Shown piece after piece: positions 26,428 to 46,084 of a DNA stretch of 64,000 bases. The notes under the pieces are model-generated. The model searched no databases. It saw only the letters and a list, made by a program, of their open reading frames with translations, and was not told where the DNA came from. This DNA comes from Alphaproteobacteria bacterium UBA4588 (lineage in GTDB: Bacteria > Pseudomonadota > Alphaproteobacteria > Rhodobacterales > Rhodobacteraceae), in NCBI GenBank assembly GCA_905182195.1, contig CAJJAW010000002.1:186001-250000 (forward strand). Direction: 5' to 3'. Made by a program: the position numbers and the translations under genes. Numbering within the stretch: position 1 is the first letter of the stretch; each line of letters starts with the position of its first letter.

Positions 26428-26472
26428 AATATTCTCCATATCGCCGAACGGAGTCAGGGATTGGAGTATTCC

Positions 26473-26556
26473 AAACCTTCCCTCCGCCGGTACTAGCCGG
26501 TTCAGGTTCTACGGGTTTGCTAACGCATCTCAGCCCAAATGGGCGCCCCGAGGTAA
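26473..26556 (-). promoter_or_regulatory. TPP riboswitch (THI element) upstream of thiB
   Basis: On the minus strand the conserved blocks appear in the right order: a GGGGC-type stem start near 26547, CTGAGAT (26527-26533), ACCC near 26511, AACCTGA (26502-26508), and TACCGGCGGAGGGAA (26478-26492). Together these form the TPP-sensing aptamer. It sits about 50 nt before the thiB start, so control is probably at translation initiation or by early termination when thiamine pyrophosphate is high. The plus-strand gap from here to aroC (26557-26739) shows no gene. Confidence 0.95.
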
Positions 26557-26739
26557 GTTTTTGCTATTCTGAATTATGAGTGAATACAATCCTAAAATGG
26601 GAAACAGTGGCCAGGTTGGTCGACCTACCACACTGCTCCACCAGTCCAACGCGTTTGCCTTAAGGTTACCTTAAGCTATTCACCTAGCCCTTGCTCCGAT
26701 TGCCCAGCAACGATATTGCATGCTCAAAGGAGCTGTCAC

Positions 26740-44776: not shown

Positions 44777-45421
44777 ATGAAAAATACATACCTCCCTGGC
44801 ATTATTGCCATGGCCACCGTCGTGGTGACCTCTAACATCCTTGTACAATATCTCCTTGGAAATTGGCTGACATGGGGCGCCTTCACTTATCCGATTGCTT
44901 TTTTAATTACCGATATCATGAACCGCGTCTATGGCATTTCTGCGGCGCGGCGCGTTGTGTTTACAGGCTTTGTCGCTGGCGTTTTATGCTCTCTGATTGG
45001 CACACAAATCATGATGCAAGGGGATGGCTATACGTTCCCAGCAGTCACATTACGTGTGGCTATTGGCTCAGGCATTGCTTTTCTAGCGGCACAACTGCTG
45101 GATATTCAAATTTTTGATCGCCTGCGCAGTGGTTCTTGGTGGCGTGCACCGTTGGCGTCAACCCTGATTGGCAGCGCACTGGATACGTTTTTATTCTTTA
45201 GTATATCCTTTTCAGCCATGTTTAACGGTTTGGAAACTGCTAATATTCCAGACTGGGCTCAGGGTGCTGTGCCCCTGCTCGGCAGCGGTCCAGAATTGCC
45301 ACTTTGGACCTCTCTAGCGCTAGCCGATTGGATGGTGAAACTCGCTTTATCCTTAATAGCTTTAGTACCATTCCGAGTGTTGGTACTATATCTTGTGGAG
45401 CCATCTGAACAAAATCATTGA
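44777..45421 (+). CDS. VUT-family (YhhQ/QueT-like) queuosine-precursor transporter
   Basis: A 214-aa integral membrane protein with about six helices. Conserved marks are LTWGAFTYPIAFLITDIMNRVYG and GSALDTFLFFSISF, typical of the vitamin uptake (VUT/COG1738) family. E. coli YhhQ imports queuosine precursors (preQ0/preQ1) for tRNA modification, and that role is likely here. The ATG at 44777 is chosen because the extra 20 codons to 44717 lack family similarity. No preQ1 riboswitch fold was recognised upstream (44627-44776). It ends 40 bp before the arfB leader element. Confidence 0.75.
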   Translation: MKNTYLPGIIAMATVVVTSNILVQYLLGNWLTWGAFTYPIAFLITDIMNRVYGISAARRVVFTGFVAGVLCSLIGTQIMMQGDGYTFPAVTLRVAIGSGIAFLAAQLLDIQIFDRLRSGSWWRAPLASTLIGSALDTFLFFSISFSAMFNGLETANIPDWAQGAVPLLGSGPELPLWTSLALADWMVKLALSLIALVPFRVLVLYLVEPSEQNH

Positions 45422-45481
45422 CTTTGTGTTTTCCTCTGACAAGTTGGTGATAACTTTAACCAGCTGAAAGGAGGTGATCCA

Positions 45482-45538
45482 GTGTCAAGAAAGGTATTGG
45501 AGAATGGTGTCGTAACAGGTTTGGGGGGTACCCTCTGA
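45482..45538 (+). CDS. 18-codon leader ORF
   Basis: A GTG-started frame reading VSRKVLENGVVTGLGGTL and ending at TGA (45536-45538). It begins directly after the 16-nt anti-SD complement, with the GGAGG core 7 nt upstream, the ideal spacing. The codons are ordinary, with no run of one amino acid that would suggest classical attenuation. If real, it would be translated at very high initiation rate, and its ribosomes would sit close to the hairpin at 45547. Confidence 0.35.
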   Translation: MSRKVLENGVVTGLGGTL

Positions 45539-45613
45539 GGCAACCCTTGGTGGATGACCACCAAACTTGGGCGCAGGTGTCCTAAACGACCCGGCCTCCG
45601 CACAACTTTCGAA

Positions 45614-45641
45614 GGGCCGTCCTATCTGGGCGGCCCTTTTT
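45614..45641 (+). terminator. strong rho-independent terminator before arfB
   Basis: GGGCCGTCC (45614-45622) pairs with GGGCGGCCC (45628-45636), with one G-T pair and the loop TATCT, followed by TTTTTCTTT. The terminator lies just 21 bp before the arfB start. It must end the upstream transcript (VUT gene and leader) or act as an attenuator for arfB. Confidence 0.9.
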
Positions 45642-45661
45642 CTTTATGGCATAGTACACAC

Positions 45662-46084
45662 ATGTTACAAATTAATGATGAGATAGTGATTCACGACTGG
45701 GAGCTGACTGAAAGCTTCACCCGCTCCCAAGGGCCGGGGGGACAAAACGTCAATAAGGTCTCAACTGCGGTGGAGCTACGGTTTGAAGCGGCCCGCAGCC
45801 CAAGCCTTCCAACGCATGTGAAAGTACGACTCAAAAAACTGGCTGGCCGAAAATGGACCCTTGAAGGTGCTTTGATTGTGAGAGTGGAAGACACTCGCTC
45901 GCAAGCCCGCAACCGCGAAATTGCCCGTGACAGACTAAAAGAGTTGATCCTCCAAGCAGCCATCCGCCCAAAACGACGCATCGCAACCCGGCCAACCCTC
46001 GGATCTCAAAAACGTAGGTTGGCCAGCAAGGTCCAACGTGGCACAGTAAAATCTCTCCGTGGGAAGGTAAAAGATGACGAATGA
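45662..46084 (+). CDS. arfB: alternative ribosome-rescue factor B (ArfB/YaeJ)
   Basis: A 140-aa peptidyl-tRNA hydrolase of the class I release-factor family that frees ribosomes stalled without a stop codon. The catalytic GGQ lies in SQGPGGQNVNKVST near residue 25, and the basic C-terminal tail (PKRRIATRPTLGSQKRRLASK) enters the empty mRNA channel. The chosen ATG at 45662 gives the usual N-terminus LQINDEIVIHDWEL; the frame is open to 45554, where an ATG sits in the loop of the leader hairpin, but that start would read through the terminator. Its end overlaps the next gene. Confidence 0.93.
   Translation: MLQINDEIVIHDWELTESFTRSQGPGGQNVNKVSTAVELRFEAARSPSLPTHVKVRLKKLAGRKWTLEGALIVRVEDTRSQARNREIARDRLKELILQAAIRPKRRIATRPTLGSQKRRLASKVQRGTVKSLRGKVKDDE

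Follow-up and report, generated by a model that had tools for sequence, protein, structure and literature searches.

A small structured RNA ahead of arfB in Rhodobacteraceae conserves the start and stop of a mini-ORF rather than its peptide: a candidate ribosome-gated RNA

We analysed the block that precedes the ribosome rescue gene arfB in a 64,000-nucleotide (nt) stretch of the genome of Alphaproteobacteria bacterium UBA4588 (Rhodobacteraceae; assembly GCA_905182195.1, contig CAJJAW010000002.1, positions 186,001–250,000 of the forward strand; ‘the window’). The block is best explained as encoding an RNA of approximately 190 nt that represents, in Rhodobacteraceae, an alphaproteobacterial family that would include the Caulobacter small RNA (sRNA) CC2171 (Rfam RF01867). 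The RNA joins an extended Shine-Dalgarno block to a mini open reading frame (mini-ORF). As judged by sequence comparison, the start and the stop of the mini-ORF are kept and, in the Rhodobacteraceae set, its peptide is not, which suggests that what counts is that a ribosome passes, whatever peptide is made. The reading that we tentatively favour, at close to an even chance, is that of a stand-alone, ribosome-gated sRNA whose mini-ORF would act by being translated, with the peptide as a by-product. Coordinates below are those of the window, + strand unless stated.

Near its 5' end the RNA carries the block GAAAGGAGGTGATCCAG (45466–45482), all 17 nt of which are exactly complementary to the 3' end of the organism’s own 16S ribosomal RNA (rRNA), the position of the mature 16S 3' end being assumed. 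An earlier note on this DNA, made from the letters alone, had claimed a complement of 16 nt and proposed comparing it with the 16S 3' end of this genome; the match turns out to be one nucleotide longer, and it is exact at both 16S genes. The match is not only exact but rare, since a search of the organism’s own genome (2,623,753 bases, at most one mismatch allowed) returned three hits: the block itself and, in antisense, the 3' ends of the two 16S genes. Across lineages the core of the block is GAAAGGAGGTGRTC, and among 30 loci picked via RF01867, 12 of its 14 positions do not vary at all, with the other two being either A or G in all 30. The 16S tail past helix 45 is free, and the computed duplex between it and the block reaches −32.8 kcal/mol, as compared to −7.8 and −8.7 kcal/mol for two ordinary Shine-Dalgarno cores. 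A 16S end of the Sinorhizobium meliloti type, with an identical tail, is present in an oligonucleotide table in the available part of PMC6943124. So long a block stands out because, according to the available part of PMC4117421, a Shine-Dalgarno sequence is present in only 24.6% of Caulobacter genes. Such pairing could also be put to a different use: as a 30S-binding decoy or reserve, the RNA would park or count free 30S subunits through full-tail pairing, with the mini-ORF merely permitting their release. While the strength of the duplex and the fact that the conserved core spans the 16S tail both fit such a decoy, parking needs no conserved stop codon, and we consider this explanation unlikely.

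The comparisons rest on 170 distinct loci from Rhodobacteraceae (‘the family’ in all counts) and 85 other loci, and the counts are of sequences, not of independent events. Most of the loci were picked with a pattern in which the block and an NTG are fixed, and were kept only if the block, with at most one substitution, was followed by NTG. Loci from named genomes (112 stretches, of which 80 are listed), 96 of them distinct within the family set, were picked by a 23-mer that also fixes codons 2–3. Less biased checks are provided by the 30 RF01867-derived loci and by a free-start pattern, AAAGGAGGTGRTCNNNNNTC, run on 240 genomes of the class that overlap the 385-genome set used for the other class-wide searches. 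The terminator finder saw no terminator in 26 of the 170 family loci and 19 of the 85 others, and these were dropped from the helix tests.

The mini-ORF, MSRKVLENGVVTGLGGTL, occupies 45482–45538 and, as previously claimed, counts 18 codons, from a GTG at 45482–45484 to a TGA at 45536–45538. When the start is left free, the codon is ATG, GTG or TTG in all 47 matches, found in 46 genomes; its distance from the block is fixed. The stop is kept as well: the ORF is exactly 18 codons long in 159 of the 170 family loci, and still in 66 of 74 once the loci picked by the 23-mer are dropped. Codon 19 reads TGA in 63 family loci, TAG in 63 and TAA in 33, with TGG – the fourth T-purine-purine combination – in none. 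Outside the family the ORF is mostly longer (22–26 codons), and the first stop falls at 17–30 codons in 75 of the 85 loci in frame 0 versus 11 and 13 in the other frames; the corresponding family counts are 169 of 170 versus 40 and 43.

No comparable constraint is seen on the peptide in the family. Differences between close family pairs are distributed over codon positions 1, 2 and 3 as 7075, 7162 and 5188 (19425 in total), the third position thus not being the freest, and the share of synonymous differences is not raised in frame (0.30, as compared to 0.36 and 0.28 out of frame). We therefore detected no purifying selection at the protein level by either test, and we rejected a functional peptide for the family on these two grounds: of the hallmarks of a small-protein gene, a start and a stop conserved in one frame are present, and purifying selection is not seen in the family set. 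Neither control codons, nor a stalling peptide, nor a run of a single residue was found in the family codon table, and across lineages the peptides have little in common beyond an MS start. These data bear directly on the possibility that we are dealing with an ordinary small mRNA that uses a very strong Shine-Dalgarno sequence to make a functional micro-peptide. The conserved start and stop are what such a gene would have, the peptide is near-invariant in one lineage, secreted-looking forms of 55–56 codons exist, and the motifs EQP and TW recur outside the family; set against this, the third codon position and the synonymous share behave as described above and little but MS is shared between lineages, so that a micro-peptide is in our view rather improbable.

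Several unusual forms of the ORF were observed. Loci L112, L308, L309 and L310, which belong to one lineage with genomes of 7–8 Mb, share a 14-codon form that hardly varies (MSxxKRCHLAGIAR), in contrast to the free peptides of other loci; this lineage may have a special peptide or a constraint on the RNA. Loci L044, L132 and L133 have the same block and start ahead of an ORF of 55–56 codons that resembles a secreted small protein, and in these loci a genuine gene may have taken over the block. Finally, a GAGCARCC hairpin, which lies close to the end of the ORF and is translated as EQP, is found in several lineages other than Rhodobacteraceae (for example, L299 and L316) and in the family locus L086.

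The 5' end of the RNA is guessed to lie near 45450. The corresponding transcript, 45450–45645, folds at −74.5 kcal/mol, compared to a mean of −64.1 for shuffled sequences (z-score −2.46; 3 of 200 shuffles fold at least as well). We aligned 70 of the 94 non-redundant family RNAs (alignment A1) and tested five helices, designated P1, P1b, Pa, P4 and the terminator. Of the 2310 cells at 33 pairs, 95.0% are paired, and two-sided changes are present at 17 of the 33 pairs; none of 500 shuffles reaches any of the five measures used, and sliding the partners reduces the paired share to 39.9–52.0%. As for the RNA of the window, its centroid fold contains all pairs of P1, P1b, P4, the terminator and a further helix, P2, and its minimum-energy fold contains all of these except P4.

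Pa, the closing helix, brings together the beginning of the mini-ORF and the base of the terminator: GAAAG at codons 3–4 (45489–45493) pairs with CTTTC (45606–45610). In A1, two-sided changes are found at all five of its pairs and 86.3% of the cells are paired, with column pair 45/206 being AU in 37, GC in 31 and GU in 2 of the 70 sequences; two of the five pairs fail in 21 of the 70. The helix would form a pseudoknot with P1/P1b and is not present in the nested folds of the window, which cannot hold pseudoknots. Across the class a closing helix appears at the same place in other letters, such as CATTGTC/GACAATG, ATGAGATT/AATCTCAT, CATGAAT/ATTCATG and CGTTTGG/CCAAACG. The best helix there scores 5.61 in cis, as compared to 4.04 with swapped arms and 4.04 with shuffled arms, and 45 of the 66 loci with a found terminator score at least 5, versus 20.1% of the swaps.

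A second set of pairings would cover the ribosome-binding region itself. In P1, GGAGGT (45470–45475) pairs with GCCTCC (45594–45599), an internal copy of the anti-Shine-Dalgarno sequence that would mask the Shine-Dalgarno; 6 of 6 pairs are present in both folds of the window. In the family as a whole the helix takes the form of GGAGGUG with CRCCUCC ahead of the terminator (A1 columns 24–30/184–190; 96.3% paired in 70 sequences). In P1b, TCCAGTG (45478–45484), which covers the start codon, pairs with TATTGGA (45495–45501) at codons 5–7; 7 of 7 pairs are present in both folds and 96.7% of A1 cells are paired. P1b explains why TTGGAG is invariant at codons 6–7 in the family. CCTCC is found in 123 of the 170 family RNAs compared to 35.3 in shuffles, and on folding (40 RNAs per group) the block is less open in the family than in shuffles (0.157 versus 0.365; lower in 36 of 40). 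A looser duplex-energy test for an internal copy of the 16S tail gives mean z-scores of −1.55 for the 170 family RNAs and −1.21 for the 85 others, as compared to 0.15 and −0.14 with a reversed block. Self-masking of the block throughout the class was considered and rejected, as the folding and the motif counts support masking in the family only; the internal anti-Shine-Dalgarno copy thus appears, on sequence grounds, to be a family trait.

P4 pairs GTCGT (45509–45513) with ACGAC (45586–45590), being GUCGG/CCGAC in the family, and has two-sided changes at four of its five pairs; column pair 67/176 is GC in 65 sequences and UA in 3, the window being among the latter, and in the window 5 of 5 pairs are present in the centroid and 0 of 5 in the minimum-energy fold. 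P2 joins CAGGTTTGG (45516–45524) to CCAAACTTG (45561–45569), with 9 of 9 pairs present in both folds; being out of register in A1, it was excluded from the A1 test and assessed by partner swapping, which gives a best helix of 6.79 in cis versus 5.84 swapped (127 of 134 RNAs measured). The hairpin P3, GAGGCAACCCTT (45537–45548), starts inside the stop codon and presents a GCARCC element in its loop; this element, which recurs 3' of the stop codon in the family, is found in 133 of the 170 family RNAs (shuffled mean 9.8) and in 21 of the 85 others (5.2). The intrinsic terminator (45611–45645) consists of a stem at 45611–45639 and a T run, confirming the strong terminator previously noticed just ahead of arfB; 12 of its 12 pairs are present in both folds, 98.3% of A1 cells are paired and two-sided changes are present at eight of nine pairs.

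A 7-bp hairpin at 45547–45564, pointed out in the earlier note for the ATG in its loop, is there in the letters, and the ATG (45554) is indeed in frame with arfB, opening an ORF of 176 amino acids (aa). We rejected it as a conserved element: it is found in 2 of 134 family RNAs, the window included, is absent from the same-genus relative L138, and has 0 of 7 pairs in either fold, where the competing P2, the 3' arm of which overlaps that of the hairpin, has 9 of 9.

The RNA is a diverged relative of RF01867. The model matches the window over its full length with 41.5 bits (expectation value (E) 1.2e-7 on 301 bases), which is below the gathering score of 75 bits. Common to both are a GAAAGGAGGUGAUCCAGUGUC block near the 5' end, a terminator, and a stretch after the start that pairs with the base of the terminator, GAAAG/CTTTC in the window and other letters in the RF01867-derived loci; the two differ in the sequence of the closing helix and in their middle part. 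Matches to RF01867 at E ≤ 0.001 are present in 85 of the 385 class genomes, and in 13 genomes the cut-off is passed; one genome (G271) has three matches and five (G012, G278, G244, G039 and G160) have two each. The strict pattern of block plus start, AAAGGAGGTGRTCNNDTGTC, occurs in 136 of 198 family genomes. In a phylum-wide sample with rows counted by kinship, 50 of 86 Alphaproteobacteria have it, as compared to none of the 213 other Pseudomonadota; the reversed pattern had zero matches among the rows of the class, family and phylum-wide searches. Rfam files RF01867 as an sRNA, and the available literature passages on it mention neither an ORF nor a 16S match; by name, RF01867 was found in the available literature passages only as a row of a table. 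A 2018 paper states, in the part available, that apart from CrfA no non-coding RNA (ncRNA) of the 2008 Caulobacter set has been characterised further.

Other identities were considered and discarded. Further Rfam matches (mmgR/suhB, RNAI, sX14, ncS025, SorY, sbrA, Betaproteobacteria toxic sRNA and BjrC68) are all below their cut-offs and all reach into the terminator, and ARAGORN detects no transfer RNA or transfer-messenger RNA gene in the window. The RNA of the window has no match among plasmids and phages searched with it. A 46-nt query picks out nine plasmid records (H1–H9), large replicons of Azospirillum, Methylobacterium, Sphingobium and Skermanella; none of the matches coincides with an annotated feature. 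Elsewhere in the window, a thiamine pyrophosphate riboswitch scores 72 bits, over the Rfam cut-off (26462–26560, − strand).

In the window the RNA is flanked by vut, a queuosine precursor transporter gene (44777–45421; TIGR00697, 85.8 bits, cut-off 50.95), and by arfB (45662–46084), which starts 22 nt past the terminator hairpin and whose previous assignment is upheld by NCBIfam NF006718 (177.2 bits, cut-off 100). TTGACT at 45418–45423, overlapping the stop codon of vut, is a candidate −35 element of the RNA’s own promoter; 83 of 168 family loci have a TTGAC within the first half of the 60 nt 5' of the block, and the column consensus at this position is weak (tTtg). Of 158 family loci, 151 have vut on the upstream side; arfB follows downstream in 139 of 161, its median distance from the terminator being 60.5 nt over the 128 loci in which a terminator was detected. 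Neither gene is found beside the RNA in any of the 86 non-family loci; by simple home-made gene calls on 85 of these loci, the RNA is followed by a gene on its own strand in 39 and by one on the opposite strand in another 39, with none called in 7. Among neighbour clusters, taken into account only from five loci upwards, none has non-family members save for one that contains two. By eye, L005, L007 and L012 have a downstream protein in common. Since outside the family the loci lack arfB and vut and the strands are split 39:39, we take the RNA to be a separate unit that lies ahead of arfB in one family.

ArfB rescues stalled ribosomes, and a rival explanation views the RNA as a leader of arfB, in which ribosome loading or translation of the mini-ORF would decide between termination at 45611–45645 and read-through, matching the rescue factor to the state of the ribosomes. 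The frequency of arfB behind family loci speaks for this, as does the short gap, which would leave little space for a separate promoter, and the fact that the closing helix abuts the terminator. What speaks against it is the lack of arfB in all 86 non-family loci, the even split of strands and the persistence of the exact 18-codon ORF in 19 of the 22 family loci that lack arfB. On these same grounds we rejected arfB-specific control as the general function, and the leader reading as such is rather unlikely. The conserved co-directional downstream gene that marks an attenuator was not found outside the family; inside it, arfB is a lineage trait only. In arfA-type control, the message of the rescue gene is cut, or stalls, ahead of the gene’s own stop codon; no such arrangement is present here, as arfB has its own stop at 46082–46084 and the hairpins studied are all upstream of the gene. 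Control of arfB would be, at most, a lineage-specific extra. The earlier note had offered two options: a translated attenuator of arfB, of which the kept start and stop and the family’s arfB neighbour survive and the general coupling to arfB does not, and a stable ribosome-binding sRNA, which comes closer in that a near relative with its own terminator exists in RF01867. It foresaw neither selection on the start and stop without the peptide nor the helix between codons 3–5 and the terminator.

An sRNA with a tiny ORF is a known kind of molecule, rnTrpL being an example. As described in the available part of PMC10117765, rnTrpL/peTrpL of S. meliloti is, like the RNA studied here, a small terminated alphaproteobacterial RNA with a tiny translated ORF. 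Unlike it, rnTrpL is leaderless and a trp attenuator; the present RNA has a very long Shine-Dalgarno block and no target operon conserved across lineages. The same source, in the part available, describes SEP1 of S. meliloti, 23 aa with an isoelectric point of 4.18 and the top translation efficiency of the non-annotated set; one lineage of our RNA likewise has 23 codons and an ATG, but its computed isoelectric point is 5.36–6.5. Like the two Caulobacter ncRNAs reported as translated (PMC4117421), SEP1 may mean that translation of this RNA has been observed before. Extended Shine-Dalgarno sites and upstream ORFs of Staphylococcus aureus, in which initiation, including that at small ORFs, is driven by extended pairing to the 16S tail (PMC13009471, available part), offer a further parallel. 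Those, however, are leaders and ordinary initiation sites, not a stand-alone structured RNA. In the Stab-SD elements of Bacillus, a strong Shine-Dalgarno sequence near the 5' end – the feature shared with the present RNA – binds a ribosome that protects the 5' end; they are not known to include a structured RNA with a conserved start and stop. A trans-acting sRNA could be built on the same principle, the bound ribosome protecting its 5' end via the Shine-Dalgarno sequence while GCARCC or CCTCC acts on other mRNAs. This would agree with the cataloguing of RF01867 as an sRNA, with the enrichment of GCARCC in both groups and of CCTCC in the family, and with Caulobacter ncRNAs being mostly untranslated in the available part of PMC4117421; but CCTCC is not enriched outside the family, Stab-SD protection requires no conserved stop codon, and we hold this explanation to be quite improbable. 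Literature searches returned no published widespread RNA with full-tail 16S complementarity and a conserved start and stop but not peptide, and the available passages of PMC12559287, PMC5107571, PMC3927594 and PMC2873474 contain no description of this RNA.

Under the reading that we favour, 30S subunits would load by pairing with the block through their whole free 16S tail, and the ribosome would translate the mini-ORF and exit at a fixed place. Its passage would open the closing helix between codons 3–5 and the base of the terminator and, in Rhodobacteraceae, would also displace the internal anti-Shine-Dalgarno copy. The RNA would thus alternate between two forms, closed when free of ribosomes and open when one is bound. 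The most likely output, for now a candidate, is that this state sets the RNA’s own stability or its action in trans, with some read-through into arfB possibly added in Rhodobacteraceae.

A number of observations weigh against this reading. By its name and year, CC2171 presumably belongs to the 2008 Caulobacter set. Ribosome profiling in Caulobacter finds the regions of 133 ncRNAs, 27 of which come from the 2008 set, to be untranslated, with two earlier ncRNAs reported as translated being the exceptions (PMC4117421, available part). The strict pattern is present in only 84 of the 385 class genomes, and the reversed control of the free-start pattern has 2 matches in 240 genomes. Two-sided changes are absent from P1 and P1b across A1, with P1 showing one-sided changes only; this is to be expected if the other arm is held by 16S pairing, and the data for the two helices agree with pairing but do not amount to proof by covariation. 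Swapping the partners of the closing helix makes little difference inside the family (4.24, as compared to 4.43 in cis; 144 loci), which is explained by its letters being common to the family. Masking, in turn, is not seen outside the family, where CCTCC is not enriched (14 of 85 loci versus 10.1 in shuffles) and the predicted openness of the block is not reduced relative to shuffles (0.423, as compared to 0.336; a lower value in just 11 of 40), and for the window alone the difference is not significant (0.255 versus 0.350; 20% of 50 shuffles are as low). Finally, EQP recurs in 14 and TW in 13 of the 85 non-family loci, which we read as putative traces of RNA pairing, and the peptides of L308–L310 are near-invariant.

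A more specific proposal is that the RNA senses 30S subunits that are free and intact, and that Rhodobacteraceae have placed this sensor before a rescue gene: only a subunit with a complete 3' end would displace the anti-Shine-Dalgarno copy (in Rhodobacteraceae), translate the mini-ORF and open the RNA. We regard this as a minor possibility and unlikely; under it, an RNA with a meaningless peptide would tell the cell how large its pool of competent ribosomes is. As to the ribosome-gated sRNA that we favour, what has been catalogued as a non-coding sRNA resembles a widespread mini-mRNA, of which the start and the stop but not the peptide are selected. If this reading is true, the passage of the ribosome would itself be the signal, a stand-alone RNA would be switched mechanically by translation, and Alphaproteobacteria may possess in it a readout of their ribosome supply.

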